Shown here piece after piece: positions 773 through 39,253 of a stretch of 64,000 nt of DNA. Both the position numbers and the translations under genes were made by a program. The notes beneath the pieces are model-generated. The model was given only the letters and a program-made list of their open reading frames with translations, did no database searches and had not been told where the DNA came from. Position 1 is the stretch's first letter. Every line of letters starts with the position of its first letter. Source of the DNA: Caulochytrium protostelioides (Eukaryota; Chytridiomycota; Caulochytriomycetes; Caulochytriales; Caulochytriaceae); assembly GCA_003615045.1 (NCBI GenBank), contig ML014114.1, positions 62,001-126,000 on the forward strand, read 5' to 3'.

Positions 773-1105
773 TCAAACGATCATGCTCAGGGTACACATT
801 AGGCTGCCGTGTGAGACGCAAACCTTCTCGCCTCGATCGGCTTATTACAAGAATGCCCGGCACAGCCCGTATGAAATCCGGTATTGTCCGCCCCATCCAC
901 GTGTTGACCCCTTGCTTCCTGTGACGACGACACTGACCGCTCGATCCCTCTCACGTCACGTTTCTCCGGCCCTCGTCATTGCCTCGCCCCGAACACCACC
1001 TGAACCGGTTCAGTCTCGACCTTTCGCGTCATTCTCCGTTTCCGATCGCCGCTGCTCCTTGGACTGGGATTCCTCGCGGTCCTCCTCCCCCTCACGCTAT
1101 TCAAG

Positions 1106-2220
1106 ATGCCTTCTCGCGAGTTCGCCACGTTTGCCGCCGGCTGCTTCTGGGTCAGTTGTTCTTTTCCTGACGCATTCAACGGAGCGATACTCTTTAATCG
1201 CGGTGGACGGATACTGAGAAAGATAATGAGAGCTCCATCATCATGACAAACCAATTCCAAGATGTGATGAGAGAGACCATGAGCATTCGTCGTACACGGG
1301 GTCGTGTATGCCAAAATGGAGCCGTGTCGGGGCTGGTGGTCTCTCACGCAATAGGGATACAGGACGCCTGGCAGACCCATACTGATCTGGGCGATGCATA
1401 GACTGACCAAGACTCTAATATGTTATTTATTGTTGTTTAATGGCACACCCGGTTTGTCCAACAGGGCGTCGAAAAGCTCTTCGCCCGGGAGTTCGGCCCG
1501 AAGGGGGCCACGACGGCCGTCGGCTACATGGGCGGCACTTCGACATCGCCCACGTACCAAGCCGTCTGCTCGGGCGCGACCGGTCATGCCGAGGCGCTGC
1601 AGCTGCAGTATGATCCGAGCAAGATCGAGTATGCCTCGCTCGTCGACTTCTTTTACCGCATACACGACCCGCGCCAGCGCAACCGCCAGGGCAATGATGT
1701 CGGCACGCAGTATCGCAGCGTGATCTTTACTCATACACCGGAGCAAGAGCGAATCGCCCGCGAGGTCACCGACAAGGCGCGTCAGCATTGGAAAAGCATC
1801 GCTACTGAAATTGGTAAGGAACTGTTACATCGATATACGGGACCTGACACGGAGCCAAGATCCGTCGGTTGAGAGTTTCACGGCGTCGTCTGATACCTAT
1901 GGATTGTGATTTGGACCGGCCGATAGGCATGGGATGAACACTTGCTATTCATGCTTCCCCATAATCACTCATGGTTGACGATTGTCGGATCCTCTGCATG
2001 CTGCTAGTCTCGTTGACCTGAACTCACTTTTTTTGAACTTTTGAGACCCATCCATCGTTTCTTTTGCATTCTGATGATATGATTGATCATGGCGGCAGTT
2101 CCGGCGTCCACGTGGTACCCGGCCGAGGACTATCACCAATCCTATCTGGACAAGACCCCCAACGGGTATGAGTGTCCCATGCATCGCGTTCGTCAATGGA
2201 TGGAGATTGAAGGCCTGTAG
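1106..2220 (+). CDS. msrA: Peptide-methionine (S)-S-oxide reductase MsrA (3 exons)
   Basis: Repairs oxidised methionine by reducing the S-sulfoxide in proteins or free methionine, using thioredoxin. I rebuilt three exons: 1106-1150, 1465-1813 and 2099-2220, joined by GT...AG introns of 314 and 285 nt. They total 516 nt, or 171 residues, close to the usual MsrA length. Exon 1 gives the catalytic signature GCFW (nucleophilic Cys), and splicing restores GCFW-GVE. Exon 2 carries the conserved VGYMGG and CSGATGHAEA segments, followed by FFYRIHDP. Exon 3 gives WYPAEDYHQSYL and GYECPMH near the C-terminus. The start is the ATG just before the family core, so no targeting peptide is seen and the enzyme is probably cytosolic. 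The gene stands alone on the plus strand, downstream of the Fanzor-like relic. Confidence 0.93.
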
Positions 2221-3354: not shown

Positions 3355-6300
3355 CTAATCCGTGGCCGAGACGGGCTTGCGACGGATGTCCCAGATGGAG
3401 TTGACGGCCTGGTACTCTTTGGTCATGTGGGCTCCGATCCAGAGCATTTGCTCGTGCTCACGAAGGTATCGGGTGCCCGAGAACTTCTTGAGCACGTGGG
3501 CGCGGAGCGCCAGGCCGAGCTTGCGGCGCTCGAGGCGCTTGGCCATGATGCGCTCCGAGATGTCGGCAAAGCGGCGCGCGCTGATCCAGTCCACGAGCTT
3601 GTCGGCGTTCGGGTCTGGGTCGCGGCCGTTGGCGACGTCCTCGAGGCCGTCAAATAGGCCGAGTACGGCGAGCTGGCCGAGCGCGAGCTCGTAGGGCGAG
3701 CCGGGGGAGACGTTGCGGCCGTAGAGGTGGTTGCCCGGACCCTGGATGATTTCACGGGACCCGCCGGCCTCGGTACACACGATGGGCTGGCCCGAGAGAC
3801 CGGCCTCGCCAAGCGCCAGCGGCAGACCCTCCGAGATGGAGGAGTTGAGCACGAGCCACGCGGAGTTGAGGACGTACTTGGAGTCGCCGAAGCCGCGGAT
3901 CTTGACGTTGTCCTGGAGACCCAGCGTCGTGATGAGGGTCTGGCACTCGTAGGTGTACCAGGGCAGCTTGTCGGTGGAGCCGTAGATGTCAAGGAAGTAA
4001 CGCTTGATGCCGAACTGGTTCACGATCACGTCGGCGGCCAGCACAGCGTTCTTGATGTCCTTGAAGGTGACGATGTGGCTCAGCATGACGGCGGTCGGGT
4101 CGGGCAGTTCGGCCGTGAAGTCGGGCTCGAAGTCGGTCATGTCCGAGATACCGTTGGTCATCGGGTCGATGCGGCGCAGCGTCTGGTTGCGGTGGTCGAT
4201 GGTCCCATTGTTCGAGCCGCGGATGACTTCCCACTCGGGGTTCGAGATGGACGTGCACGGCAGAATGACGTCGGCGTTGTAGAGGGACAGTGACGCGATG
4301 AGACGGACCATCATGATCATCATGTTGTGCAGCGACGGGCGGTACTTGGACTCGGCGCCCGACCAGTGGCCGAGATATTCACGCCACAGAATGCCGTGGT
4401 CCCAGACGTGGAGGGCAACGCCCTTCTTGAGCTTCAGCACGAGACCCACGATCGAGCCGGTGGCGTGGTGTGAGGCCTGAACGACGTCGGGCGGGTCGTC
4501 GGGCAGAGTGACGGCCAGGCAGCACATGCAACGGCGCATGTAATCCATCGTGTTGAGGAGCGACGTGACGGTTGCGGCCTCGAGGTCGAGCAGGTTGTCG
4601 GGCATGCGGTCCATCCACATCTCCATCCACGCGAGGCGGACGCGCGGGTGGTTCCAGATGGCGTTGTAATCGTAGATCTGGAAGAAGTCGTAGTAGTCGA
4701 CGAACACGCGGCTGGCGGCCTCGAGATCGGTGGCACGCAGGTCGCGGATGTGGCAGTAGTGGATGAGGCGGCGCAGGATATCGATCATGTTCGTGACGGC
4801 GCGGTCGTCAGAGCGGGTCTCCTTGTCCTCCATCTCCAGGTCGGTCTTGGCGCCCATCAGGCCGTGGCACGCGTCGAGCCAGTCATAGCCCCAGAGCGGG
4901 AGCATGCAGACCGTGTTGACGTTGTACTCGATCTGGAACTGCGACAGAATCAGCTCCATGTCGTGCGCGTTCTCGGCGAGAATGTTCCACCGGATGGACG
5001 CGAGGTTGTCGACCATGTCTTTCACGCAGTTGTGCACCACGACACCGGCCGCGACAAACGACACATGCGCCAGGTCGACCGACAAATCCCAGACTGGCCG
5101 CGGGCCGACCGGCTTGGCGAAGAGCACGCGCAGGCGGTACGTCGCCATCGCGTCCAGACGGGAGTCGCGGACGCCGTAGACGACCTCGTAGGGCGAGGCT
5201 GCGTCGAGCTCCGACGCGTCCTCGGCGGCCATGCCGCGCTCGTCCTGCTGGAACGAGGACAGCATTCCCGTGGTGGCGATCCACTCCTTGGCCGAGGGCA
5301 CGAAGCGCGCAAGGTCGGCGCGGCGCAAGTCGGCAGCCGCGCCGTCGACGACGCGGAGGAGGCCGGGGGCAACCAGCGTCGGGCCGATCTCGTCGCACAC
5401 GCGAGTCCAAGCCGCGCTGACAGGCACCTGCGCGGCAGTGAGGGCCTCGACGCGGTCGACCATGCCGGCGTACTGCGTAGCGGCGGTCTCGCACATGCGG
5501 TGCCAGCTGGCCGCAACAGCCAAGCGCTGCTGCTTGTCGACCGCGAAGCCGAAGCCGATCGCCGATTCGAACGTGTGCGTGTCAGTTTCCGCGATCACCA
5601 GAACGACCGTCATCGTCTCGGACGCAGACGGCGACGCAGCGGCTGGCGACGGCGCCTCGGTGTGGGCCGCAAGGTGGAAACGCTCACGGAGCACGTCGCA
5701 CATGCGGTTCGTGCTGGACACCAGGGCGTTGGCGTTCTTAGACGGGAGCGACGCGGTGAAGGTGACTCCGGTGAGGCCGCCGGTAGGCGTGAGCGCGGGG
5801 GCGTGGCCGCCGCGGCCAAAGAGACCGGCAAAGAACTCGGCCTGGACGGCGCGCGGGCAGTCAGCGGCCATGAGGCGCGCCGGGAGGCCAGACGCGTCGA
5901 TCTGCTGCGCCAGCGCCGGGGGCAAGGCGAGCTGCAGGCGGCCGCGCGGCAGCGGCGTCGTGGCCTTGACGGAGACGCCGGCCAGGAGCTCGATCGCCGC
6001 CTGGATGTCGTGGGCATCGAGCACGTGGCCGACGGTGACCATGGCCGCCGTCGACGCATCCGCTAGCGTATAACCGGCGAGGCGGGCAAAGGTCAGCGTG
6101 GCCTTGATGTTCGTGGGCGAGTCGACCGTGTAGGTGTGGTCGCCCGCCGCGAGGGTCCACGCGGCTTCGGCGGCCTCGATGGTGCGGAGGGGAGCGATCG
6201 GCGCGCACTGGACGGTCTGGCCGATCATGTCCTTCGCCTCGACCCAGGTGCCATCGCCGCGAAGCAGACGGTGGTCAGGGGTGCACACGAGCGTGCGGCC

Positions 6301-9300
6301 GTCCGAGAAGGTGAGCTCCACGCACGCGCGGACGCCCTGGTCCAGGCGGTGGGAGACGAGACTCGGGACGAGCCCGTTCTTGGCGGCGTCGAAGGCTTGG
6401 ACACGGTCGCCTACGGCCACGGTTTCGATCGCGGCGGCGTCGCCGCGGCCGACGGCGACCGGTGTGCCGGCAGCGATACAGTTCGACACACCGCCCGAGG
6501 ACGAGGGCCACGTGCCGGTGTCCAGACCGAGAACGTGAAGCTTCTCGGGCGTGATGGGGAAGGTGATCTGCGGGCGCAGCGAGGTCACGTACGAGTCGCC
6601 GCCCATGCCCATCATATACAGGTCGGCGAGCTTGAACGCCACATGCGACTTGGACGAGATGTCGTCATCGATGTAGATCGCCGCGGCGATCTGGTCCTCG
6701 TGCTTCTCCAGGTGACGGATGGCCGCCTTGATGCGGCCGGCGTCGCGATGACGCCAGTACGGCCGCAGCAAGGGCTCCTGGCGCAGGAGGTGCTCGTCGA
6801 GCATGCGCGCGTAGACGCCGTCAACCTGGTCCGTGGAGAACCAGACCTTCCACAGGGCTGTGCGGGCCTTACGCGTCGAGAACTTGAAGGGGCGATGGTA
6901 CGGGATCGCGATATCGCGGCGCTCGTAGTACAGCAGGTTTTCGAGCTGGAAGAAGAGACGCGTCGGGCGGCCGAGGATGCGGTAGGAGTCCTTGGCAATG
7001 ACGGTCGGGGTCTCGACCTCAACGCCGTGGTGCATCGTGCGCAAGACCGGGTGGCGCTTCAGCGCATAGTCCCAGGTGGTCTCGAAGACGCCCTCGCGCG
7101 CGGTCATGACAACGCGCTGGATCATGCTCGTCGGGATGATGCGGCGCTTCTGCGTCGTGTACCAGAAAGTGGAAATGACCACGTGGTCCGAAACGTAGCG
7201 GATCTCGAGCAGCTCCTGGTGGTGGACGGGCTCCTGGTAGAGGAACTCGACATGGAACGTGATACCGCGGCGGCGCGAGAGACCGCGGGTGACGTGGCCG
7301 TGGTGCGGGTCGTAGAAGTAGACGTCCTGGAAGAAGCCGTCGGTGGAGACGACGTCCTTACGCTCGGGAATCGCGTGGCTGCGCTCGGCGTAGTGGAAGA
7401 CAATGTTCTCCTTGACTTCGAGGTTCTTCCAGACCTGCTGGCGCAGCAGGATCTGGTCGGTCGAGTACTCGGAGATGAGGGTCAGCAGCTTGCGCGAGAA
7501 GGGCTTCTTGGTGATGATGCCCTTGTAGTGGTGGAACACGAGGGGCACCGCGGACTCGAGGATCGCCGTCTCCGGGGCCAGCGGGTTGTGCAGCTGGATG
7601 TGGTGGTCGGTGACGACGCGGCGAATCGCGCGCGAGGAGGTGTTCTTGAGCACGTGCAGCATGGGACGGTTGACCCACAGCATGTTCTCGACGAGCGACA
7701 GGAACAGCGTGCGGTAGAGGCGCGCCAGCGTCGTGGTGACGAGCACGATCGGGTAGTGGATCAGCGGCGAGCGGTGGCGATGGGCCAGCTCGATCTCGCG
7801 CGGGATGTAGACGTCCGACGAGATGAGCGAGTACCAGAAGCGGCCCGTCTGGTTAAGCCAGTACGCGAGGCGGCGCAGGAACGACGGCCGGCGCTCCGAG
7901 AGGTCGGCGACCCAGGACCACTCCGAGTCGAGGAATGTCGGCTTGACATAGGGCACGCCATGCGCGAGGCGAGAGCGCGTCTCGGCATCGACCATCAGCG
8001 CAATGCGCGAAGTCAGCTCCGACGTGGCCGAGAGCTGCTCGACCGAGCGCGTCGGGTGCAGGTCCGCCAGGCTCGTCACGACGTCGCGCGTCAGCTCTGC
8101 GCGGCCCTGCATGCGCTCCACGAGATACGTGCGCAGCGCGGGCGTCAGCTGTTCCCAGCACAGGTCGACCGGGATGTTGAGCGCGAGGTGCTTGACGACC
8201 TGCTGGCGCGTGTTGAACACGAGCGAGGTCAGCTCACGCGAGCTGAGGCGGTAGATCTGCGCGGCCATGCGGGCCGGCAGCACACGTCGCGGGTCGTGCG
8301 GACCGTCGAGCAGCAGCTCGGCCGCGCAGGCTTCGTGGTGTGCGTACCCAAAGAGCAGCTCAAAGGCCTCGTGCACCAGGGCCTCCGCGATGCGGCGCAC
8401 CGACGTCGGGTCGCGTGCAATCTGCTCCGTGATGGACTGGCCCGTCTGGATAGTCAGATGGATGCCGACGTACAGGGCGAGGCCGCCTTGGCCGTTAAGG
8501 ATGGGCAGCGCAGCGTAGCCGCGGCCTTCGCCCAGCACGAGCGCCAGGTCGGGCACGACATAAACACGGATGTGGTCCTCGCACCAGCGCTGGACCAGGG
8601 TCGTCATGTGGGTGGCAGCGTCCGGGAATGCGAGCGCGAGTTCCGAGCCGGCGGGCGCGCCGGCCTGCTGGAGCAATGCCGCGATCGGGCGGCCCGCCTC
8701 GCCCTCGGGCGCGATCAGCACCGCCTTGCGGCGGAGTTTGCCACGGATCAGGCGATCACGGTCGTCCGCGGGCAGAGCGGGACCCACGCCGATGCAGTGC
8801 TGGCCGGTCGTCAGGTTGGGGCGGTCTAGCAAGTCGTGATCCTCGCGGTAGTTCCAGATGACGCCGCGCCAGGCGATGATGGCGGCAATCCACATGCCGA
8901 CACAGGCCGAGACCTGCTCCAGTAGGTACTTGGAGTTGGGCATCATGTTGCGGAGCGGGATGCCCATGGCGAAGCCGACAACGACGCCGACGAACATGGC
9001 CGTCACGGCCGCCGAGGAGGTGTTGCTGATGAAGATCTTGGAGTAGACGGCCCACAGCAGGCCCGTGTAGCCGAAGGTCATGATGAAGAAGATGATGACC
9101 GTCTGCATCTGCGTCGCGGTGACCCAGAGGAACAACGCGCACAAAACCCAGATCCAGGCGCAGACGCCCGCGAAGAGGCCCAGATTGCTGAAGTACATCT
9201 GGCGCTGGAAGGCCATGCGCTTGATGAGCGTCGGGCGGAGCTCCTCACGGTTGTGCAGGAGCGCCTCGGGCAGATTGTTGATCTCGCGCCAGATGCCACG

Positions 9301-12300
9301 GGCAATGATCTCCATAGCGACGTTGGCGAAGAGGAAGTATAGCAGAGCGGCACCGGCGCCGAACCCGCCCTGGGGCGAGTTGACGGCAATGAGCGAGAGC
9401 AGGTCGCCGCCGGTGAAGAGGACCACCCAGCGGTCGAGCAGGAGCAGGAAGAAGTAGAGGAAGCCGAAGCCCATCTCGTTCTTGGACCACGCCCACATGA
9501 GACGCGTGCGGTTGAGCTTCGAGGCCTTGTTGAGCTTCTGCATGTCCTGGATGGCGAGCTTGACGTTCAGGTTCCACTCGAGGCCGTACGGGCGCGACAC
9601 GTCGTAGTCGAGGTGGATCGAGTGCCAGTTGAGCAGGTACTGCGTGACGCCAAACGCATCGGCGAGCTTCTGGACGAAGGGATCGCGGCGGGAGGGCGCG
9701 AGCAAGCGGACAGACGTACCAGGCAGCGGGATGCCCTTGAACCAGCGGAACCAGCGGGCGCGCTCGGCATCGACCTCCTTCACGAGGCGTCGGCGAGCAA
9801 TCTCGTCGAGCCAGTTGTTCTTCTTGTTCATCAGCTGGTCTTCCGTGAAGGCACCGTACTTGGTCTGGTACCAGTCGCCGATCGCCTTTTCGTTCGTCTG
9901 GACGACCTTGTGCAGCCAGCCCGAGAAGAAGGTCAGCACGAGGCGGGTCTTGTAGAGCCAGAGAAGCGCATACAAGCCCCAGAAGATGGCGTGGGTCATG
10001 AGCTGGTAGTTGCCCAGCGGGACAACGAACGAGAAGATCCAGTAGACAATGGCGACGGGCAGGATCTGGTAGACGGCGGTGCGGCCCGATGTGACCGAGA
10101 TGCCGTCGTTGTAAATGGACGCGAGCGTGCCAAGGCAGAGCAGGTAGATCGGGTAGACGATCAGGTACAAGAAGAAGATCAGGCCCTTGTAGTACGAGTT
10201 CGAGAACATGACGATGAAGCCGCCGATCAGCGCGACAAAAATCGAGGTGATGAGGCCCGCCGAGAGCTGCTGGAGCATCATGACAGCCATCGAGGGGAAC
10301 TGGTACAAGTACAGGTAGTAGGAGCCTGCGGTCGAGATGGACGGGCTCATGCCGCCCGCAATGAGCAGCGAGATGAGCAGGCCCATCGAGACGTACTGCT
10401 GCTCGACACGGGTCATGCTCGTGTTGACAAAGATGCCGTGGCCAGTGATCATGAGGAGCAGCAGATCGAGCACGGAGGGGATGGCGAACACGAAGGCCGC
10501 CGAGATGTCGCGGCCGACCTTGCGCGAGTGGGACTTGCGCGGCGCCATGTCGCCGGAGTGCAGGAGCGGCAGGTACGTGAACATGAACTTGCGCGGGTGA
10601 TAGCCCTCGAGCGGCGGCGGGTTGGCCTGCAGGTAGTCGAAGCGCTCGTCGTACATGACCTGGCCGATCTTGTCGATGGCGACGTCAAAGAACTCAGTGC
10701 AGCGGGAGCCCAGGATGTAGAGCTCGGACATGAGCGCCTGCTGATCGGGCTCGCGGGCCGGGAGGGGGTTGAAGTCGCACGTGACAAAGAAAACTTCCTC
10801 ATAGGCCTGGCGCTTGCACGCAGCAAAAAACATGCACGCGAGCAGATCCGTCGAGGCCTCGACGCGCGTGCTCGTCGCGTAGATTTGGGCAAACAGCGCC
10901 ACGATCTGGCGCATGTAATCGGCGTTGTTGAAGAACCCGTGGCGCACGACCCACTGGACCTCTTCCCACAGCTCGACGAGGCTGTCGAGGCGGAAGGAGA
11001 GCGACTTGACGGACACGTCCGCGAACGGCGAGCCCGACATGGAGGTCAGATCCGACATGCTGCCTTCCACGGAGTAGCTCGAGTCGCGGGCGGTGCCGTC
11101 GTCGCCGAAGCCGGTGCCGAACGAGCCCGCCATCCCGAGCGGGCCGCGGCCGACGCGCGAGGCCTGCGAGGACAGCGCGGAGGCATCGAGCTCGCTCGCC
11201 GATTCCGATTCGAGGGTCTCCTGGTCGGTCGTCGTCGCGGCCGTGAGGTGGCTGAGGTGGCCGCCGGGCCCGCTCGAGCCGGCGCCGCGGACGGGCGGGC
11301 GGACGAGCTTCGCCATGCGCGAGGAGAGGTCGCGAGAGACGACGCGCTTGTACCACGCGCAACGCTCGCGGAGGTACTCGCGGGGGCTGACGCGGTTGGC
11401 CAGCAGGTCGACGGCGTGGCGGGCGACGAGGTGGTCGATCTCGACGGCGTCGAGCAGACGGCGGCGGGTCTCCTTCCAGACGGCGGTGTCGAGGCTGTCG
11501 CGCTGCGCGTGGGTCGCGTGCACGAGCAGCAGCTGCTCCGAGACGGTCGACTGCTCGATCTGCAGGCGGATGTGCGAGGGCAGGCCCTCGGTATCGTGGG
11601 GCAGGAGGTCGGGCGGCGACGGGATCCACGACTCGATGACCGCGCAGGAGCGCGCCGGGTAGCCGTGGGCCGAGAGCCAGGCATTGAGCAGGGCTTCGGC
11701 GGGGCGCGGGTGCTTCTGCGAGAGGTACACGTGGAGCGTGGGCGGGCGATGGACGGCGTCCGCGGGGGCGGCGCTGTCCATCTCGTACACGGACCAGAAG
11801 TGGACGTCCTCGACCTTGAACCCGGTGTCGAGGCCCTGCCAGAGCTCGAGGGCGAACGAGAGCGCCTGGCCGTCGGCGCCGACCAGAACAGGCGGCTCGA
11901 CAGGAGCGCCCTTCTCGTCGAGCGCGACGCTCGCGACGTAGGCCTTGAGGGCCTCGAGCAAGCGCGTCAGGTGCCACGCGACCACGCGGCGGTCGGGGTA
12001 GCCGTAGTCATCGTAGATGGGCATAGTGGCCTCGCCGTCGACGCGCGAGGAGCGCGAGAGCGTGTTGATGTGGGCCTGCAGCCCGTCGGCGGTCTCGGCC
12101 TCGTGGGGCGAAACAACGTAACGGAACTGCTCAAGGAGCTTGATGGCCGCGTCGCGCTTCTCGGGCGCGAGGGCGAGCAGGTACGCGCGCGTGCGCAGGT
12201 CGCGCTGGACGGTGACGACCTTGTCGAAGTGCTCGCGCGTCGCGGGGCGCATGAACTCGGGCTGGCCAGGGACGTTGATGTGGCCAGGGGCGGTCGCACT

Positions 12301-13764
12301 GCCCTGGGCGCCGAAGTACGCGTAGTCGCCAAAGGCCTGGACGGTCTCGATGTCGCCGGCATCGGGCATGGCGACGTCGATGGGGACGCGCTCGATCAGG
12401 GCATCGATCTTGCGGAAGTACGGACGCCACAGCCGCGGGTCGAGGGCCGGGTGGGCGGAGGTGTAGTGGCCCGGGTCCGTCGAGACGGTGCCCGGCGGGC
12501 GGCGGGGCACCAGGGCGCCGTTGGCCGTCGCCGTCGGGAGGGTCGACCACTCCGTCATGACCTCGACGCGGTGCTGGACCCACGCCTTGCGGATCGCCTG
12601 GTACTCGATGGCGCCCATGAACTCGAGCGCGCTCGTGGCACGGGTCAGCGGGCGGTTGTACTTGGGCACCGACAGGCCCTCGGCGACAGTGAACCACGGG
12701 ACGGCCTTGTAGAACTGGGTGAACTTGAGCAAGCGGTTGATCTGGGCGGGCGAGACGGTCGCCTGGGACGAGACGGCCTCGCAGATCAGCACCGCAAAGT
12801 CCTCGCGCGTGCTCTGCTGCTCGGTGTATGCCTTGATGATGCGGTACACGTGCGGGACCATCTGGAAGTAGTCGCGGCGAGAGCCGTCCAGGCCAATCGT
12901 CACGTTGACCATGAGCACGCCGTGCAGGGCGTTCATGTCGGGCAGGTGCTGCGACGAGAACGTCGGCGGCTGCAGCTCGACAAAGACGAGCACGCCGCAC
13001 GCGCGCAGGAACGCCGCGACCTCGGTGAAGATCGGCGCGTGCGGAAGCGTCTCGAGGCCGTGGAACAGAATGCCGTCGAAGAGGTCGCCGTGGCCCTGCG
13101 CGCCGCGGATCAGCGGCACGGCGACGGCGACGACCTGGCGCACGAAGGCGATGGTCTGGGACGTGTTGATGCGCGGCGTGGGCGCGTCGGGGCCCACGGG
13201 GCCGCCGCGGACGTGCTTAGGGAAGCAGGCTTCGACTATCGGCGTCAGGTCGACGCGCGCCAGCACGAACTTGGAGGTGATGTGCTGGCGCAGCGGCCCA
13301 AGGACACCGCGGCGCGACGGGTCCAGCACGAGCAGCTGGTAGCTCGTCAGGATCCGCATCGCATCGGCGCCGAGCGGGCTGCCGAAGTCACCCAGGTAGA
13401 TGCCGAAGTTGTTGAGCGCCGCAAGCGGAACATTGCGATTGATGGGCAGACGGCGGGCGATCTGCTGCGGCGTGCCGAGGGCCGCGCGGACCTCCGAAAA
13501 GTTGACGCGCAGCGGACGCTTGCGCACGGGCCGCGTGCGGATCGCGTTCCACAGCAGCAGCAGCGTGCCCACGAGCAGAAGCACCGCCGCGACCAGAGCC
13601 AGCACGATGATGTAGCCCTTCTTTTGGTAGATGCCCATCCCGCGCTGCGCGAGTTTCCACGCGACAGCGTTCGTCGGCTCCTGCGCACGCACCGAGTCTG
13701 CGAGCAGCCAGGCGGCGGCGACGGCGGCCGCAGGCCGGCGGCCGGGCCGCGTGTGCAGCGCCAT
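3355..13764 (-). CDS. Giant PelF-like GT4 membrane glycosyltransferase interrupted by an intein
   Basis: A single uninterrupted frame of 3469 codons (2985 residues after intein removal). I chose the ATG at 13764 because it has an excellent context (gccaccATGG) and opens a signal peptide (about residues 1-27, cut near SVRA-QE); upstream in-frame codons lack an ATG. A transmembrane helix at 51-74 is followed by basic residues, which places the next ~1000 residues in the cytosol. Membrane-spanning clusters follow at about 1090-1280 and 1430-1640, like a polysaccharide export or synthase core. The C-terminal ~600 residues are a GT-B fold GT4 domain: SSSGGVS is the glycine-rich nucleotide-sugar loop, and ISEGLPLALGEAG is the EX7E motif, followed by GQPIVCTEAGG. 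This matches bacterial PelF and resembles the fungal GT4 enzyme (Gtb3) of galactosaminogalactan synthesis; substrate is inferred. The intein lies right after the SSGGVSN loop. The 1000-residue N-terminal domain is not recognised. Confidence 0.85.
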   Translation of the reverse strand: MALHTRPGRRPAAAVAAAWLLADSVRAQEPTNAVAWKLAQRGMGIYQKKGYIIVLALVAAVLLLVGTLLLLWNAIRTRPVRKRPLRVNFSEVRAALGTPQQIARRLPINRNVPLAALNNFGIYLGDFGSPLGADAMRILTSYQLLVLDPSRRGVLGPLRQHITSKFVLARVDLTPIVEACFPKHVRGGPVGPDAPTPRINTSQTIAFVRQVVAVAVPLIRGAQGHGDLFDGILFHGLETLPHAPIFTEVAAFLRACGVLVFVELQPPTFSSQHLPDMNALHGVLMVNVTIGLDGSRRDYFQMVPHVYRIIKAYTEQQSTREDFAVLICEAVSSQATVSPAQINRLLKFTQFYKAVPWFTVAEGLSVPKYNRPLTRATSALEFMGAIEYQAIRKAWVQHRVEVMTEWSTLPTATANGALVPRRPPGTVSTDPGHYTSAHPALDPRLWRPYFRKIDALIERVPIDVAMPDAGDIETVQAFGDYAYFGAQGSATAPGHINVPGQPEFMRPATREHFDKVVTVQRDLRTRAYLLALAPEKRDAAIKLLEQFRYVVSPHEAETADGLQAHINTLSRSSRVDGEATMPIYDDYGYPDRRVVAWHLTRLLEALKAYVASVALDEKGAPVEPPVLVGADGQALSFALELWQGLDTGFKVEDVHFWSVYEMDSAAPADAVHRPPTLHVYLSQKHPRPAEALLNAWLSAHGYPARSCAVIESWIPSPPDLLPHDTEGLPSHIRLQIEQSTVSEQLLLVHATHAQRDSLDTAVWKETRRRLLDAVEIDHLVARHAVDLLANRVSPREYLRERCAWYKRVVSRDLSSRMAKLVRPPVRGAGSSGPGGHLSHLTAATTTDQETLESESASELDASALSSQASRVGRGPLGMAGSFGTGFGDDGTARDSSYSVEGSMSDLTSMSGSPFADVSVKSLSFRLDSLVELWEEVQWVVRHGFFNNADYMRQIVALFAQIYATSTRVEASTDLLACMFFAACKRQAYEEVFFVTCDFNPLPAREPDQQALMSELYILGSRCTEFFDVAIDKIGQVMYDERFDYLQANPPPLEGYHPRKFMFTYLPLLHSGDMAPRKSHSRKVGRDISAAFVFAIPSVLDLLLLMITGHGIFVNTSMTRVEQQYVSMGLLISLLIAGGMSPSISTAGSYYLYLYQFPSMAVMMLQQLSAGLITSIFVALIGGFIVMFSNSYYKGLIFFLYLIVYPIYLLCLGTLASIYNDGISVTSGRTAVYQILPVAIVYWIFSFVVPLGNYQLMTHAIFWGLYALLWLYKTRLVLTFFSGWLHKVVQTNEKAIGDWYQTKYGAFTEDQLMNKKNNWLDEIARRRLVKEVDAERARWFRWFKGIPLPGTSVRLLAPSRRDPFVQKLADAFGVTQYLLNWHSIHLDYDVSRPYGLEWNLNVKLAIQDMQKLNKASKLNRTRLMWAWSKNEMGFGFLYFFLLLLDRWVVLFTGGDLLSLIAVNSPQGGFGAGAALLYFLFANVAMEIIARGIWREINNLPEALLHNREELRPTLIKRMAFQRQMYFSNLGLFAGVCAWIWVLCALFLWVTATQMQTVIIFFIMTFGYTGLLWAVYSKIFISNTSSAAVTAMFVGVVVGFAMGIPLRNMMPNSKYLLEQVSACVGMWIAAIIAWRGVIWNYREDHDLLDRPNLTTGQHCIGVGPALPADDRDRLIRGKLRRKAVLIAPEGEAGRPIAALLQQAGAPAGSELALAFPDAATHMTTLVQRWCEDHIRVYVVPDLALVLGEGRGYAALPILNGQGGLALYVGIHLTIQTGQSITEQIARDPTSVRRIAEALVHEAFELLFGYAHHEACAAELLLDGPHDPRRVLPARMAAQIYRLSSRELTSLVFNTRQQVVKHLALNIPVDLCWEQLTPALRTYLVERMQGRAELTRDVVTSLADLHPTRSVEQLSATSELTSRIALMVDAETRSRLAHGVPYVKPTFLDSEWSWVADLSERRPSFLRRLAYWLNQTGRFWYSLISSDVYIPREIELAHRHRSPLIHYPIVLVTTTLARLYRTLFLSLVENMLWVNRPMLHVLKNTSSRAIRRVVTDHHIQLHNPLAPETAILESAVPLVFHHYKGIITKKPFSRKLLTLISEYSTDQILLRQQVWKNLEVKENIVFHYAERSHAIPERKDVVSTDGFFQDVYFYDPHHGHVTRGLSRRRGITFHVEFLYQEPVHHQELLEIRYVSDHVVISTFWYTTQKRRIIPTSMIQRVVMTAREGVFETTWDYALKRHPVLRTMHHGVEVETPTVIAKDSYRILGRPTRLFFQLENLLYYERRDIAIPYHRPFKFSTRKARTALWKVWFSTDQVDGVYARMLDEHLLRQEPLLRPYWRHRDAGRIKAAIRHLEKHEDQIAAAIYIDDDISSKSHVAFKLADLYMMGMGGDSYVTSLRPQITFPITPEKLHVLGLDTGTWPSSSGGVSNCIAAGTPVAVGRGDAAAIETVAVGDRVQAFDAAKNGLVPSLVSHRLDQGVRACVELTFSDGRTLVCTPDHRLLRGDGTWVEAKDMIGQTVQCAPIAPLRTIEAAEAAWTLAAGDHTYTVDSPTNIKATLTFARLAGYTLADASTAAMVTVGHVLDAHDIQAAIELLAGVSVKATTPLPRGRLQLALPPALAQQIDASGLPARLMAADCPRAVQAEFFAGLFGRGGHAPALTPTGGLTGVTFTASLPSKNANALVSSTNRMCDVLRERFHLAAHTEAPSPAAASPSASETMTVVLVIAETDTHTFESAIGFGFAVDKQQRLAVAASWHRMCETAATQYAGMVDRVEALTAAQVPVSAAWTRVCDEIGPTLVAPGLLRVVDGAAADLRRADLARFVPSAKEWIATTGMLSSFQQDERGMAAEDASELDAASPYEVVYGVRDSRLDAMATYRLRVLFAKPVGPRPVWDLSVDLAHVSFVAAGVVVHNCVKDMVDNLASIRWNILAENAHDMELILSQFQIEYNVNTVCMLPLWGYDWLDACHGLMGAKTDLEMEDKETRSDDRAVTNMIDILRRLIHYCHIRDLRATDLEAASRVFVDYYDFFQIYDYNAIWNHPRVRLAWMEMWMDRMPDNLLDLEAATVTSLLNTMDYMRRCMCCLAVTLPDDPPDVVQASHHATGSIVGLVLKLKKGVALHVWDHGILWREYLGHWSGAESKYRPSLHNMMIMMVRLIASLSLYNADVILPCTSISNPEWEVIRGSNNGTIDHRNQTLRRIDPMTNGISDMTDFEPDFTAELPDPTAVMLSHIVTFKDIKNAVLAADVIVNQFGIKRYFLDIYGSTDKLPWYTYECQTLITTLGLQDNVKIRGFGDSKYVLNSAWLVLNSSISEGLPLALGEAGLSGQPIVCTEAGGSREIIQGPGNHLYGRNVSPGSPYELALGQLAVLGLFDGLEDVANGRDPDPNADKLVDWISARRFADISERIMAKRLERRKLGLALRAHVLKKFSGTRYLREHEQMLWIGAHMTKEYQAVNSIWDIRRKPVSATD
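5029..6480 (-). other. Intein (protein intron) with decayed LAGLIDADG endonuclease, in frame in the GT4 domain
   Basis: Residues 2429-2912 of the precursor, 484 residues. The first residue is Cys in CIAAGTPV (block A), preceded by extein GGVSN. Block B is CTPDH, with Thr67 and His70 of the intein. Block F is VWDLSVDLAHVSF, with Asp465 and His472. Block G ends VVVHN with penultimate His483 and Asn484, followed by Cys as the +1 extein residue. All residues needed for class 1 splicing are present, so activity is likely. The middle (about 130-430) has the size of a LAGLIDADG homing endonuclease. ARLAGYTLAD keeps the Asp of the first motif, but FFAGLFGRGG has Gly at both positions where the second motif usually carries Asp. 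Removal rejoins GGVSN-CVKDMVDNL, a normal GT4 loop. Base composition matches the host gene, suggesting long residence. Confidence 0.93.
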
Positions 13765-14996
13765 GGTGGCGGGCGAGAGCGTGAGCCGTCGCGTCGTGAG
13801 GTGTCGACACGGCGCAAGGAAGCTGCGGGAAGACGCGGCAACAGCGAATCCAGCGAATCGGAGGCCTAGCGAGAAAGAAACGACAAGGCAGACGATCACG
13901 AGGTCACGTCGTCGGGACAACCAACGACCCGGGGAGAAGCGAATGCACAATCAATGAGTCGAACGAGGATGGTGGCGCGAGACCGAAGCGAGCGAAGCAC
14001 CCACCCAAGGAACGACCAGGAGCCTCACGTCAAGGATTTCAAAGGAGCCAGCACTGATTGGCAGTTGGACCTATACCCCAACGGGAGAACGGGCGACCAC
14101 GAGATCAGCCCCGGCCGCGTGAGGGGATGAGACGTTCAAAAACCAGGACGCCACAAGCGTTTGGGGGGGGACACAGGCGGCGGGGGGCGTATCCGACGAT
14201 CGATGGAGTGGGTGGGAAGCGCCGGGCGGAGCGGATGATGGCGAGCGACCCGTCAGACCTGGAGGAACGGACGAGTCAAACTGACGACGACGACGACGAC
14301 GACGACACGCACCACACACGGCGGCGGCGGTCGCATGCAACGAGAAAGGGAGAAAGAGGGGAGAGCGGAGGGTGAGGGGGAAACCAAGAAAGGAGAGAAG
14401 AGGCGGTGCCGATGGGCGACAGTATACCACGGACAGCAACGGCAAGCGAGGGCCGCGGATGACCGACAGGTCCTCTAATCACCGCGCACAGACGTCACGC
14501 AACCACCGAGTCTCCACGGTGTCTGTGGACGGGGAGCGGGAGGAAGGGAAGGGCGGCCAGCATTGGCCCAGGAACGGGAAGCAGCGGGGCAACGCCATGC
14601 AGGAGTCGTCCTGCGCGCGACGGGGAGGGGCCATGCATCCATCCATCAACACGCTTGATACCGTGTTTGTACCTCGCACGCGCGTGCTTCGGCACATGGG
14701 CCGGGACCGTGCACGACATGACTCGAGTGGGACCGTCGCGACGGCGGGTCGGTCGAACGGACGCGGCCGCCCGCGTTCCCCGCTCGACCGCTTTCTTGCG
14801 CCGCGGTGCCGCGACAACGTGGACCGCGGCGACGCGGCGGGCGGGCGGGCATCGCCGAGCGCGGTCGTCTCCACCCAGACGCGACCGAGGGCTATCGAGC
14901 GCCTGCCGTGCTGTGCTGTCCCCGCGCGAGGCCTCCGCGCCGCATGCCAGCGCGGCGCCGAGATGGGCCGCCACGGGACGGCGCACGGCCGTGTGC

Positions 14997-28655: not shown

Positions 28656-31211
28656 TTATGCCAATGTCCGCGACAGCGCCGACGACAGGGCCGCACTGTT
28701 GGGAAGAACGGTCGGGACCGCGGGGGGTGAGGCGCCGTGCACCAGGCAGATCGGAACCGCCGTCAGCATATGATACAACGGCCGCGGGCTCGCCATCCCG
28801 GGGTTCTTAAGTCCCGGGGCCAGGCCCCCCTTCCCCACGGCGATGGGCCAGCACGGCGATCTGGAGGATGCCGACGCGGCGTCGCCGCTACTAAATCCCG
28901 AGTCGACGCGCGGGAGCGAAGCGCGCGCAGCGGCGGCGGCTTGGGCGCTCGTGCGGGCCGAGGGCGCCACGCCTTCGGCGCCCGCCGCGGACGCGGCCAG
29001 GGGCGGCGGCGATGGGCTCGCATAGCGCGAGAGCGCGGCGTCACGGCCGAGGGCGTAGGCGAGCTTGGGCGGCGGGTCCTCTGACGCGCCGTCGGCGGCC
29101 GGCGGCCTCGCCGCTGTCGACGCCGCCGTCGACGGCGGGAGCAGCGCCGGTGTCGCGGCGCCGGTGCTAGCGCCCGTGCCGATGGTTCGGGGCGTGTGGG
29201 CCGTCTCGTCGTCGCCGTCGAGCGACCTCTCGGAGCCGTCGCGATCCGAGTAGACCGTCGAGCCGAGAAACATGGACGAGGCGAGGGAGACGCAGGACAG
29301 CGAGGCGAGCTGGGCGGCGAGGGCCGTGGCCGTGACCGGGGCGGCGGCCTCGAAACAGAGCGGCGAGGCGGAGGCGGAGGCCGCCGGAGTGCACGCCGAC
29401 GCTGGCCGCGACGCCGTCGTGCAGCTGCACGCGTCGTCGCTCCCCTCGTCGTGGTCCGGTTCGGCCGCGTGGCGGTCCAAGCAGCAGGACGGCGCGGCGT
29501 CGAAAAGGGCTGAGGCGGGCCGATGTGCCATCGCCGCCTCGTCCAGCGTGTCCTGCTGCGCATGCCACTGCGCAAAGGCGCTCCGCAGCAGATCGCGGGT
29601 CGGCGTGTCCGCCCCGGCGTCGACACGCACGCCGTGGGCGCCGAGGTCCAGCTCGCCGTCCATCGCCACGGCTTCGTCGCTCGTTGCTGCCTTCGCATCC
29701 GCATCCGCGGATGCGACCGGCAAGGAGCATAGGCGAGGGCGCGGGGGCAGGATCACCGGCAACGGCATCGCGAGCTGCGGTGCCGGCGCTGGATCGGCGG
29801 CCGCGAAAGCGCCGCGCGGACACGAGCAGACCGGCTCGTCGCGCCGCGCTTGGCGCAGCACGAGCTGCCGCAGATGCTGCGAGGGCTGCCCCATCGTGGC
29901 GCAGTGGACGGTCCACCGCCAGACGTCGGCACACATGGCGTGCAGGTCGAGCATGTCGTCGCCGCGCCACCAGCGCGGGAGCCAGGTGCGGGCGCGACGG
30001 TTGTCAGCGACGACGAGGCCGACGTCGCCGACGCGGCGCGGGCGCTTGCAGATGGGCAGGCGGAAGGGCGGGGCCGACGAAGGCGACGGCGCGGCGTCGT
30101 GGCCGGCGAGGCGCTGCTCGGCCTGCCAGGCCTGCACGACCGACTCGAAGGCTCGGACGACCTCGAGGACCGAGGCGCCGCGGCCGAGGCCGAGGTTGAA
30201 GGTTTGGACGACGCTGCCGGTGGCAGGCGCGGCGCGACCCGCGGCGAGAGCGGTGCTGGCGTCGATGGCCGGATCGGTGGACGTGGCCGTCGGCGCCATG
30301 AGCGCGTCGTAGGCGTCGACATGGCCGCGCGCGAGGTCCATGACGTGGATAAAGTCGCGGACGGCGGTCCCGTCGGGCGTTGAGTAGTCGGTGCCAAAGA
30401 CGGGCAGCACGGGCGGGTCTGCCGCGGACGCGTCACGCGCGGCGAGGAGCCCCAAGTGCCGCGCGGCCACGTTGGCGACGATGGGCATCAGGTTCGTGGC
30501 CTGGTTGACGGGGTCCTCGCCGATGAGGCCCGAAGGGTGGGCGCCGACGGGGTTGAAGTACCGGAGGAGGGCGACCCGCCACGGCGCGGCGGCGGCGGCG
30601 TCGCGCAAGAGCTCTTCGCAGGCAAGCTTAGTCCATGCATACGGGTTGGTTGGGTAGAACGGGTCGGTCTCGCGCTTGGCGGCGTAGGCGGCCTGGATGA
30701 CGGCGGGTGGCGCGTGCGGGAAGTCGGGCGCGGCCGCGCCATACACGACGGCCGAGGAGGAGAACACGATGGTGCGGCACCCCTCGTCGTTCATGACGCG
30801 GATGAGGGTCGCGGTGGCCACGACGTTGTCGCGCCAGTAGGCGGCTTCTTGGCGGACAGACTCAGCGACGCTCTTGCGGCCAGCGAAGTGGAAGACGCCG
30901 GTGATGGGGCCATAGCGGCGGAAGAGGTCGCGGAGTAGCGGCTCGTCGCCGACATCGCCGACGACGAGGGGAATCGGGATGCCGGCGGCCTGCTCGATGC
31001 GGTACAGCGACGCGGGCGACGCGTTGGCGAGCGTGTCGAGCACGACGAGGCGGGTATAGCCGGCGTCCAGCAGGACCTGGACGGTGTGGCTGCCGATGTA
31101 GCCGCAGCCGCCGGTGATCAGCAGCGTGCCCTCCGTCGACCGCGGCGGCGCCGATCTGGACACGGGCGGCGACAGCGACGGCAGTGAGGGGGATGGTGGC
31201 GCCCCGAGCAT
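28656..31211 (-). CDS. UDP-glucose 4-epimerase with a long disordered C-terminal extension
   Basis: 851 residues from the ATG at 31211; the frame is open further upstream but without ATG. Residues ~30-430 are a complete GALE-type extended short-chain dehydrogenase: TGGCGYIGSHT (NAD-binding loop), FSSSAVVYG, catalytic NPYAWTK (YxxxK), LLRYFNPVGAHPSG and RDFIHVMDLARGH, ending at HAMCADVWRW as normal epimerases do. It interconverts UDP-glucose and UDP-galactose, possibly the GlcNAc/GalNAc pair, in the cytosol. Unlike yeast Gal10 there is no mutarotase domain. Instead ~420 residues of Ala/Ser/Pro-rich low-complexity sequence follow, with scattered Cys pairs. A ~25-residue low-complexity insert also interrupts the core before NLGLGRG. 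Its nearness to the PelF-like glycosyltransferase suggests a role in exopolysaccharide precursor supply. Confidence 0.92.
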   Translation of the reverse strand: MLGAPPSPSLPSLSPPVSRSAPPRSTEGTLLITGGCGYIGSHTVQVLLDAGYTRLVVLDTLANASPASLYRIEQAAGIPIPLVVGDVGDEPLLRDLFRRYGPITGVFHFAGRKSVAESVRQEAAYWRDNVVATATLIRVMNDEGCRTIVFSSSAVVYGAAAPDFPHAPPAVIQAAYAAKRETDPFYPTNPYAWTKLACEELLRDAAAAAPWRVALLRYFNPVGAHPSGLIGEDPVNQATNLMPIVANVAARHLGLLAARDASAADPPVLPVFGTDYSTPDGTAVRDFIHVMDLARGHVDAYDALMAPTATSTDPAIDASTALAAGRAAPATGSVVQTFNLGLGRGASVLEVVRAFESVVQAWQAEQRLAGHDAAPSPSSAPPFRLPICKRPRRVGDVGLVVADNRRARTWLPRWWRGDDMLDLHAMCADVWRWTVHCATMGQPSQHLRQLVLRQARRDEPVCSCPRGAFAAADPAPAPQLAMPLPVILPPRPRLCSLPVASADADAKAATSDEAVAMDGELDLGAHGVRVDAGADTPTRDLLRSAFAQWHAQQDTLDEAAMAHRPASALFDAAPSCCLDRHAAEPDHDEGSDDACSCTTASRPASACTPAASASASPLCFEAAAPVTATALAAQLASLSCVSLASSMFLGSTVYSDRDGSERSLDGDDETAHTPRTIGTGASTGAATPALLPPSTAASTAARPPAADGASEDPPPKLAYALGRDAALSRYASPSPPPLAASAAGAEGVAPSARTSAQAAAAARASLPRVDSGFSSGDAASASSRSPCWPIAVGKGGLAPGLKNPGMASPRPLYHMLTAVPICLVHGASPPAVPTVLPNSAALSSALSRTLA

Positions 31212-34028
31212 GATGGGCGTTTCGAGGCGGAAGATGCGAACCGAACCGAACGGTCTGACCCGTCGTGCAAAAAAAAGAGGGGCCTCGGTGGCGACAGCCC
31301 AGCAAGACGGCGTATGGACGGCGCGCCCGTCGCCGAGTCGTGAAGCAGCCGCCTTACGCACGCGGGACGCGCATGGGCGTCTTGATCAGCAGCGGGGCGG
31401 CACCGAGCAGATCCAGCACGTGGTGATGGGCGACCGTGCCCGAGGCGTCCACTGCCCTGGTCGCTGATGCTGACGACGCTGCGCCCCGGCGTCGTCAGCA
31501 ACGACGGCCTTGCGTGATCCAGGCTGCGCCCAGGCGCTGATGCGATGCCGGCGGCGGCGGACACCCGTGTGGGGCCGAGCAAGCAACCGTAACAGCACTA
31601 GGACGAGCGACGGCCACAGCGGCACCGCTGTGGGGGGATGTGGTGATGCCAGCGCCGCGACGCCACGGCCGGCGCGATCGGCACGTCGGCGGCGTGTTGC
31701 GGTCCGTACGGCGTACGGCGGTGCAGGGGTGGTGCCGTCGGCGGCGGCGGATATGGGCGGCGGCGGGAGGATCGGGCTTGGGGAGATGGAAAGCCGACGA
31801 TGGGTCAGGGCGGCTGCGGCCGGCGCCGCCGAGCCGGACTGGGCACGAAAAGGGGCCAAGAGGCGACGCGGTCCCCAAACAAGGCGGTCCGCTATGTCGC
31901 GAAGCACGATGAAGGCGGCCGAGGACGGGGCGTCCCAGAAGGTTGATGAGGGTGATGACGATGGTACGGGCGGTGGTACGGGCGGTGGTACTGGCGATGC
32001 CAATGGCGATGCCGATGCCACTGCCAACGACGACAATGACGCGAATGAGATCGGTGGAGGACAAGGTCGCGACCCGCGAAGAGAAGGGGGGCCGGCGCGT
32101 CGAAACAGCGAGCGAGTCGATGACGGCGATGATGACGACGACGTCTTGGACCCGATACTTCGCTGAAGCGGACGTCGCCGCTGGGACCAATCGAACGGAC
32201 ACGCGGGACGGAACGGTGGTGGGATGCCAAGACGGATGTGGCGCGGACGTGCGGCGGTTGTCGCGGACGGATGGCGTCACTGCCGCGACTCCGTCACGTC
32301 AGACGAGGACACGGCCCGAGACCGAGCGTCCCCTGGGCCGATGCGGAAGCCCGATGCGCCAGGACGAGCGGCGGCGGAGTATGGAGGACGGGCAGACGGC
32401 GCGAGGCGCTTTGTCCTGGCTCACCGAAAACGCCTCCCAGCGTGTTGCCGGAATCCGGGCGACCGGCAACTCAGACCGGAAAACGCTGTCGGCGCCACAG
32501 AAACGACCGGGCCTGGGCCCTCGGCCTTGACGAGAAACGGCGATGGGCGCCGCAACTCCGCTCGTCCGTCAAGGCGCACGATGCAGGGCCGATGCAGGAG
32601 CCGATGCAGGAGCCGATGGGACGTCGATGCCACGCGATGGTCGACCGCCCTCGGTGAAGATGCGACCGCCGGTGTTGGGAATGCGGCCTGTCGAGCGAGC
32701 GGCTGGTGGGGGGTCTCGATGGCGAGCCGCCGGATACGCGTGATCCGCCACCTCGTCGAGTTCAATCGAGGTCTCGCGTCGGCCGACGCAGGGCACGCAC
32801 CGCACCGCCACCGCGACGACGTGACCCGGAAGGTCTGATCGAGAGGCTTCAATCAGGAAGGACCCGCCCAGCGCCGCCGAATCGCAGCACCGACCCGAGG
32901 GTGGTCCACGGACGCTCGACAGCCGAATCGGCGAATTCGCTGCGGCGGCGACGGCCTTGGCTGGGCCGCGCCTCGGTGGGGATCATCCTTCGCCGGCGTC
33001 TCGGCTCCGCGCCGCTCCTGCACCGGCATGGGCCTCGCCCCGGCCGGCCGCCCCTCCACCTCTCGATCCTCCCGCCGCGCTGCCAGCACCCGAAAGGCCG
33101 GATACCACCGATACCGTCCGTGCCCATAGTGATGGGCCGCTCGGGCCGCCGCCTCGGCACCCAACGCGCCGGGCCGGGGCCAGCACGCCGCGCGGCCGTG
33201 TCCACCCTCCCCTTCGCCGTCGCCTATGCCGCGCCGCGCGTGCTCGCATCCGAAGCCGCCGCCGCGGTGGCATGCGAGCCACCGGTCGCGCGCTGCGCTG
33301 CGCACCGCGCAGCGATAGGAGAGCGCGGTCGAATCGTCATCGGTCCCGCCGGGGTTCACGCGGGCCTCGCCTCGCCTCGCCATTTTCCATTTTTTTTTCC
33401 CTATCGGGCCGCCCGAGCGCAGGCCAGACGCGTCAGAATTCGCATGAGCGGAAATTCGCATGAGCGTGCCTGCGGAGGCGGCCGAGGGCCTCTGGCGTGG
33501 GTCCGTGTGCGCGGCTAAGCGATGCCACGTCAGATGACCTAGAAATCACCACGGCCAAGCGGAAGCGCGTCCGGTGGTCGCGGCCCCGCGCGTACCCTGT
33601 CGGCTCGGCTTGGCTGATGGATACATCCGCATCCCCGCTGTGATGGCGCGCTGGCCGGAAGCGCGCCATCCCAGCGCCAGAAGACGATGAGACGGCAACA
33701 TGGCCGGGTCGCGGTGAAAGCGGGGTGGTTCAAAGCATGCCGACGCGCCATCCCTCCTTGATGGAGAGCTTCATGAAAGCCATTCATGAAAGACGTGTTC
33801 TCTCTCTACCCGTATGTGTTTGAAACTAATGTGGTGACATGGGCCGACCTCAGTCGACATGGTATGGAGCTTAAAGACAACGCTTGCTGAAACGCTTGCT
33901 GAAAGGATGGCACGTGACGCGGTCTCCGAGCCCGCGGAGGGCCAACCGCAGGCAGGTGGTTCGCAACCACGTCCCTCGTGACGGCCCCATGGGCACCCGA
34001 CGGCGTCAGACGACCAGGAATCGCCCAT
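31212..34028. other. Intergenic, 2.8 kb
   Basis: Upstream region of the epimerase. It includes a 12-base repeat built on GGTACGGGCGGT around 31962-31990 and Asp-rich or Arg-rich open frames, including a 218-codon plus-strand frame with no ATG at its start. None of these is convincing. The last 500 bases (33.5-34.0 kb) are less GC-rich and hold no recognisable gene. Confidence 0.4.
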
Positions 34029-35933: not shown

Positions 35934-37229
35934 GCCGACGCTCAGCGCGGCCGCACGATGCCGGGCGTGAGGCGAGCACCAGAGCCGCGGGCGATGGGTG
36001 ACGCGGGCCTGGCGTGGCGCGAGACCAAGGCCTCCGTCGATCGCTGCCTGACGCGGGTGCGGTCCGCGAGGGTGATCCGCAGGTGCGCCCAATCTGCCAA
36101 TCTGCCAGCTGGATCCAGCGAGAGAGCGCGCGGGAGGCGGCACGGGACGGCGGCAACGAAGTGACGAGCCGAAGGTGCTGCCCGCCGAGCTCGCGGGATG
36201 AAGATCGAATGGGAGCGGATGGATCGGTAGCAGGATCCGTATCCCCGTCCCGTCTCGCCGTCTCGCCGGAGCACGGGCCAGGTACCAGGGGGTGGGACGC
36301 TTGGCGACGCGGAAGCGGGGTGATCGTCTTGCACGGGGGCGTCTAGCGCGCAGCTGAGGGCACGGGAGAGTGCTGGGCCGTCCGTCATGGGCCCTCGCCG
36401 GCCCCGCGACTGCGCACGCACGCACCCCGGTCAGGCGACCTTCCGCCGCCCGACGATAAGAAGCTTTCGCAGCCTCCTGGCGGCGGGATCTTCCCGCGGC
36501 TCTTGCGTCGAGCTGAGCCGCGCTTTGGGATGATGCGCGGCGCGGACGGGCCATGCGGATGGGCGGCTGGCTCGCTCCCGCAGCGGCGCTCAGTGCAACG
36601 CGCCGGCGGGTCGGCCGTCGGCCGTCGGCGCAGCCCGACGCGGGCGAGACGAGGCGAGGCGAGACGAGGCGTGGCGAGGCGAGGTGTGGCGTGGCCACCC
36701 AAGCGGGGTTTGAGCCTCAAGCATCGGCAGCGGACCCTGTTGCGGCGCTGCGCGGCCGACCGCGGGCGAGCCTTCCGGGCCTTCTGCGGCCCAGCGCGAG
36801 GACCGTTTCGGGATCGTCCGCGCGACGCGGGGGTTTGTCTGGCCACGACACGTGGCGCTGCGGAAAACGCGGTATCACGCCGTGGCTGTGGCGAGAAGCA
36901 GCGGCACAACCGCTAGCCTGGCTCGAGCCTGGCCCATGGCTCACATGCCGTGGTCGGAGTTTTCCGCGTCGCGTGGGCATCCGTGGGCGGGTCCGTTGCT
37001 GGTCACCGTTCGGACAGAGGGAGCGGTCGGAGTTTCGGATGTCCGGAGCAAGGCGTGCCATGCCGGCATGCGTGATCTCCCCCTGACGCTCCGCCTTTCA
37101 TCGCCTTCAAGAGACCTCACACGTGACGCCGTGACGGACGTTGGCCCCATCGCTAATCCGACCGGCGAGGCGAGCCCAGAGCGAGCGACAGCCGAGGGTC
37201 AAAACCGTCCTCTCCTCCCGACGGCCAGG
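35934..37229. other. Divergent intergenic region between capping enzyme and MutY
   Basis: 1.3 kb holding both promoters. A short GAGGCGA/GAGACGA repeat occurs at about 36647-36690. Frames extending both genes upstream exist but are Arg-rich and lack family similarity, so I exclude them. No TATA box was noticed. Confidence 0.4.

Positions 37230-39217: not shown

Positions 39218-39253
<36 letters not shown>

Follow-up and report, generated by a model that had tools for sequence, protein, structure and literature searches.

Introduction

The hosts in which eukaryotic nuclear inteins are most commonly found are Prp8, VMA1, RNA polymerase subunits, ThrRS, GLT, CHS, and eIF5B (Green et al., 2018, PMC5784728). 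The fungal examples in section 5 of that survey include at most three inteins in one fungus (PMC5784728), and the parasitic fungus Salmacisia buchloeana has three inteins in its genome (PMC10849329). Here we describe a 484-residue insert in a giant membrane glycosyltransferase of the chytrid Caulochytrium protostelioides. The gene lies in a stretch of 64,000 nucleotides (assembly GCA_003615045.1, contig ML014114.1, positions 62,001 to 126,000), hereafter the window, and positions are those of the window unless a locus handle is given. We are highly confident that the insert is a large fungal nuclear intein (hereafter the GT intein) whose splicing domain appears competent and whose LAGLIDADG endonuclease lacks one catalytic acid, and that it interrupts a PelF-like GT4 gene at the Cys codon that is conserved behind GGVS(N/A/S).

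Results

Anatomy of the Insert

Class 1 inteins splice by an N-S acyl shift at Cys1, followed by transfer to Cys+1, cyclisation of Asn, release of the intein, and ligation of the exteins. The insert occupies positions 5029..6480 of the minus strand (1,452 bases with no stop codon; frame residues 2491-2974), as supported by translation, homology, and predicted fold. An earlier note on this DNA had given the same coordinates, omitting the strand, and had called the insert an intein; splicing blocks, homology, and predicted fold all agree with that call. Translation places block A with the nucleophile Cys1 (CIAAGTPVAVGRG) at 6442..6480 (-), and this residue is invariant in both of our smaller intein alignments (A1, 4 rows; A2, 17 rows). 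A larger alignment comprised 38 inteins, 4 from the C. protostelioides genome (GT, IleRS, TrpRS, and RPB2) and 34 from 32 of 43 relatives; the other 11 relatives (P0069, P0077, P0081, P0083-P0089, and P0093) were excluded, mostly for a missing end or a short match. It located block B (GRTLVCTPDHRLL), which has the TxxH signature as TPDH, at 6262..6300 (-) and, together with the translation, blocks F and G (VWDLSVDLAHVSFVAAGVVVHN) with the terminal His-Asn at 5029..5094 (-). The insert begins with Cys and ends in VVHN followed by Cys, in keeping with the Cys, Ser, or Thr at positions 1 and +1 and the terminal His-Asn of class 1 inteins.

All splicing residues are retained in the 38-intein alignment, and the splicing domain is predicted to adopt the HINT fold in a part of the model that is confident. 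Judged by these features, the GT intein is complete and probably splicing-competent. A chance match to intein motifs was ruled out by the homology to inteins and the predicted fold. Frames of 530 and 920 codons on the opposite strand likewise extend over or border on the stretch, and we therefore gave the open frame itself no weight as evidence. Base composition and codon use in the insert match those of the host (GC content at third codon positions, 0.884 vs. 0.912; correlation, 0.988, where host windows average 0.980), as expected for a translated, long-resident sequence.

Two LAGLIDADG-type motifs lie within the insert between the splicing blocks. The first (LTFARLAGYTLADASTAAM; 6040..6096, minus strand) retains its acid, D, while the acid of the second (QAEFFAGLFGRGGHAPAL; 5791..5844, minus strand) is replaced by G, both as placed by the 38-intein alignment, in which eight inteins have no endonuclease region. 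By a count of the printed alignment columns, 23 of 30 long inteins have Asp at the second position, where the GT intein has Gly (GRGGH). An active LAGLIDADG enzyme has a catalytic acid in each helix; here only the first is present, so the endonuclease is probably dead and the ability to home probably lost. The same D-to-G loss is seen in the IleRS intein of this genome (GGGGH), while the TrpRS intein retains both acids. Decay that has begun in the endonuclease domain would also fit an intein that no longer splices at all, leaving the gene inactive or the enzyme split. We find this very improbable, as the splicing residues are all in place, the splicing domain is modelled with confidence, and the remainder of the host is open with its motifs present.

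The Host Gene and the Insertion Site

The host is an open frame of 3,531 codons at 3355..13950 (-), whose start we took to be the first Met, residue 63 (13764). Pfam detected Glycos_transf_1 (E 5.1e-10), and the NCBIfam model PelF (NF038011) matched at E 1.3e-16 and 60.8 bits; since this score is below the model's cut-off of 100, and the match thus falls short of an equivalog, we call the protein PelF-like rather than PelF. Without the insert it has about 3,000 residues, with hydrophobic, membrane-type segments detected by a simple scan. The exteins read TWPSSSGGVSN ahead of the insert and CVKDMVDNL after it. The GGVSN at 6481..6495 (-) corresponds to the GT4 N-lobe loop in an alignment with eight of the homologues described below and four bacterial proteins annotated as PelF, which have EGTYPHSHGGVS-type loops. 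The C-lobe motif (I/V)SE(G/A)xP...E of the bacterial proteins aligns as well, and the corresponding E-x7-E motif of the C-extein (SEGLPLALGEAG) lies at 3799..3834 (-); we take it to be the GT4 catalytic motif. Judged by alignment, the protein thus has the GGVS loop, the DUF3492 N-lobe, and the GT4 C-lobe with E-x7-E that mark such hosts. Pfam found DUF3492, the N-lobe of the PelF-like enzyme type, in three of four homologues scanned and Glycos_transf_1 in all four; in an intein-free homologue DUF3492 begins 13 residues ahead of the loop, and the scan did not detect it in the interrupted host itself.

To compare the insertion site, we used the C-terminal portion of the host protein as query and scored 2,172 candidates of about 1,940 to 6,180 residues. 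The 50 matches listed comprise 48 homologous glycosyltransferases (40 from named fungi and 8 others) and two proteins, P0051 and P0052, that match through inteins. The best of the matches listed are from Chytridiomycota, with Chytridiales sp. JEL 0842 at 56%. In a comparison confined to the GGVS site, all 48 homologues examined are empty and gap-free there, and all have the Cys that corresponds to Cys+1 (5026..5028, minus strand), preceded by GGVSN, GGVSA, or GGVGS. The alignments thus agree with the proposal that the enzyme is a PelF-like GT4 protein and that its GGVS loop is where the intein lies. In the genome itself, a search for an empty-site paralogue returned none at E<=0.001, the C-extein matching only itself.

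The earlier note had named two outcomes that would argue against an intein, namely removal of the segment as an RNA intron and its presence in orthologues as an ordinary domain, and neither was found among the possible GT-AG introns and the 48 homologues examined. The continuous frame would suit an accessory domain native to the enzyme, an explanation that we nevertheless rate as having next to no probability and rule out on the 48 of 48 homologues that lack the insert and run gap-free through the site. An mRNA intron could well have a length divisible by three. However, considering GT-AG introns, none of the six equivalent cut positions for exact excision is GT-AG, and the scan within 45 bases kept two stop-free, in-frame GT-AG options, one deleting GVSNCVK and the other replacing CVKD with Y. 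On this GT-AG comparison we rejected an mRNA intron, because no option is exact and both of those kept lose the conserved Cys; the intein homology and predicted fold speak against it too, and its probability is in our estimate negligible.

Other Inteins of the Genome

Reading of junctions revealed 13 inteins or more, spread over 10 genes of the C. protostelioides genome, a lower bound because the search was mechanical. Besides the GT intein they comprise inteins in IleRS (537 residues), TrpRS (491), ThrRS (450), RPB2 (538), RPC1 (419), RPB1 (445 and 416), Prp8 (163, 428, and 401), VMA1, and eIF5B. Pfam backs the hosts of seven intein-bearing frames; VMA1, eIF5B, and the identity of IleRS among the class I synthetases were read by eye. 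Prp8 has three inteins in one gene, including the 163-residue mini-intein (L027:4359-8213, minus strand), and other loci are L072 (VMA1), L073 (eIF5B), L012 (ThrRS), L023 (TrpRS), and L014 (RPB2).

The IleRS intein is 34% identical to the GT intein over its full length, and the TrpRS intein is 33% identical over residues 1-166, although both interrupt other hosts at other sites. The former, at GWD|CHGLPVE (L013:2853-4463; G000:C4:128852-130462; minus strand), is on the same contig and strand as the GT intein, about 2.9 kb past the end of the window and about 60 kb from the GT intein. At the DNA level, the two share one 75-base stretch at 73% and a 12-base match. The evidence differs in strength from one intein to another. 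In a profile scan, no intein family was detected at E<=1e-5 in the ThrRS and RPB2 frames. The ThrRS intein fell short of its cut-off (20.5 vs. 24.5 bits); it was recognized by a C-terminal part 42-44% identical to the RPB1 and Prp8 inteins and by intact ThrRS sequence on both sides.

RPB1 (L011:2358-3605, minus strand) and RPC1 (L015:4118-5374, plus strand) each have an intein at the site TAVK|TAETGY. The first residue of both is Ser, and the last is Asp in place of Asn; the second RPB1 intein (L011:4629-5963) ends in Gln. Since the TAVK|TAETGY pair is near-identical (1,138 of 1,239 bases, 91.8%) and shares its site, its sequences are best read as the product of recent transfer between paralogous sites.

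Relatives in Other Organisms

Searches for relatives, as the earlier note had proposed, found inteins of the same genome and inteins of other hosts such as aconitase, dynein, and topoisomerase. Those outside the genome are mostly on metagenome contigs. P0053-P0067, P0090, and P0091 are 27-33% identical to the GT intein over 67-100% of its length, most end in HN|C, and further, weaker relatives exist. From Pfam numbers and junction residues, their hosts are presumably RNA polymerase, aconitase, dynein, and a class I tRNA synthetase that is interrupted elsewhere, as well as COPG, XRN, NOG, topoisomerase II, DHHC proteins, and others. The aconitase inteins (P0055-P0056, P0059, P0061-P0065, and P0067) stand directly ahead of a conserved Cys (GYGCTT|CIGNSG), and two of these records are labelled bacterial by their sources (Ktedonobacterales and Myxococcales). 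Another set of mutually similar inteins (P0072, P0073, P0075, P0076, P0078, P0079, P0080, P0092, P0068, and P0070), seven of them of 161-180 residues, is found in unrelated hosts that we assume to be eukaryote-like (DHHC, PP2C, XRN, a kinase, and others); the set perhaps comes from one or a few intein-rich protist genomes.

As to origin, genome contigs were scanned for a source among sequenced bacteria and archaea, and none of the 23 candidates was confirmed, a weak test because some aconitase inteins are labelled bacterial by their sources. A scan of viral contigs found 29 loci, which would be compatible with transfer in either direction. On one contig of the viral collection (L035:1-5898, plus strand), several inteins, as judged by eye, break an RPB2-like frame, and one of them resembles the GT intein and retains the LAGLIDADG acids.

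Neighboring Genes and a Possible Polymer Pathway

A GalE-type UDP-glucose 4-epimerase gene (28659-31385, minus strand; TIGR01179 above cut-off) lies about 15 kb from the glycosyltransferase gene and is possibly a supplier of its precursor. A GH114 fragment is present at the end of another contig of the genome. The GalE-type gene and the GH114 fragment are compatible with a galactosamine-polymer pathway, and no more. A genome search for Spherulin4 (PF12138) was without match, but its control was silent everywhere too, and we therefore claim no absence. In Aspergillus, Gtb3 (AFUA_3G07860) is a putative galactosaminogalactan polymerase and exporter (PMC4817252) encoded in a five-gene cluster; it is also named Gt4c (PMC8224951), is described as a putative transmembrane glycosyltransferase, and is a candidate counterpart of our host.

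Pfam further identified in the window a formin (45188-50392, plus strand), an mRNA capping enzyme (34032-36716, minus strand), an HhH-GPD/NUDIX (MutY-like) protein (36714-39398, plus strand), and a FUSC-type membrane protein (50583-54737, minus strand). An intron-containing gene (about 1100-2220, plus strand) probably encodes a peptide methionine sulfoxide reductase, judged by eye from its FAAGCFW-type start.

Discussion

We propose that the whole precursor would be translated, that the N-extein would then pass from Cys1 to Cys+1 while Asn484 cyclises, and that the ligated GGVSN-CVKDM loop would fold into an active GT4 site. Homing or ectopic transfer may have brought the intein to this site at a time when its endonuclease still worked, and it may now persist because it splices. 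By structural reasoning the unspliced precursor should be inactive, because the GT4 loop is split before ligation.

Several observations weigh against an intact, spliceable intein of this kind. Pfam and NCBIfam intein models score under their cut-offs on the insert (PF14890, 22.9 vs. 35.8 bits), whereas the IleRS and TrpRS frames of the same genome pass PF14890 with 39.4 and 49.1 bits; this cut-off is an extra test and not a defining trait of class 1 inteins. A slow or defective intein could have the same sequence appearance. The 48 homologues are those listed by one search within a length range, and intein-bearing homologues may exist outside that listing. Finally, a tree was built from 30 long inteins; good support is confined to 6 of its 27 inner branches, the GT branch is long, and the bootstrap had not settled. 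The four inteins of this genome do not group together in that tree, and as it is largely without support, we make no claim about the donor of the GT intein, including descent from the IleRS intein.

The earlier note had further suggested that splicing could gate polysaccharide synthesis. Conditional splicing in response to redox, temperature, or stress would sharpen our explanation rather than oppose it. The intein splits a loop conserved in the aligned PelF-like proteins, and an inactive precursor is therefore expected; both Cys1 and Cys+1 are capable of redox chemistry, and two DnaB inteins of M. smegmatis are reported to splice in a stress-responsive way (PMC6195587). However, the sequence has no sign of conditionality, and at least 12 other inteins of this genome occupy housekeeping genes unrelated to the synthase. 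In a genome so laden, the presence of an intein needs no function and ordinary spread of a mobile element suffices, and we consider gating unlikely. We would also place little weight on a broader scenario of an intein-permissive fungus in which inteins are still spreading between genes and the PelF-like synthase is on only after conditional splicing, which would control surface-polymer synthesis. The intein and its host site thus stand as the earlier note had described them, while the functional consequence it drew from them stays conjectural.

The author of that note also knew of no intein in a PelF/GT4 enzyme. PelF-like GT4, IleRS, and TrpRS are indeed absent from Table 1 of PMC5784728, a table that covers only the most common hosts and is not exhaustive. 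The word "glycosyltransferase" is absent from the main text of that survey, a check that leaves aside its supplementary host list. As far as titles and the starts of abstracts tell, an intein in such a glycosyltransferase host is not reported by the open-licence PMC papers that treat inteins, glycosyltransferases, fungi, and protein splicing together, and we claim no priority.

Compared with described systems, the GT intein resembles other fungal nuclear inteins in interrupting a conserved loop of a nuclear gene ahead of Cys, Ser, or Thr (PMC5784728). It is 29% identical over the aligned part to the Mtu RecA intein (PI-MtuI, 3ifj), whose host is a bacterial RecA. Its own host aligns with bacterial PelF in the GGVS loop and the C-lobe motif, but has about 3,000 residues, membrane segments, and a score below the PelF cut-off (PMC4817252, PMC8224951, PMC9030451, PMC8647848). 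RPB1 and RPC1 are the largest polymerase subunits, while the inteins of Goodwin 2006 are in the second-largest ones (PMC1635734), and with their near-identical inteins, an apparently recent transfer from one paralogous site to another within a single genome can be studied directly. Surprise lies as much in the intein load of this genome as in the single host. Its 13 or more inteins, against at most three in a fungus named in section 5 of the survey and three in S. buchloeana, together with relatives in many unlisted hosts, suggest that counts of nuclear inteins are too low and that repeated intein invasion is tolerated in some lineages. The PelF-like GT4 enzyme adds to the nuclear intein hosts one that is interrupted at its catalytic loop, and its enzyme class is not wholly new as a host because chitin synthase, a polysaccharide synthase, was already known as one (PMC5784728).

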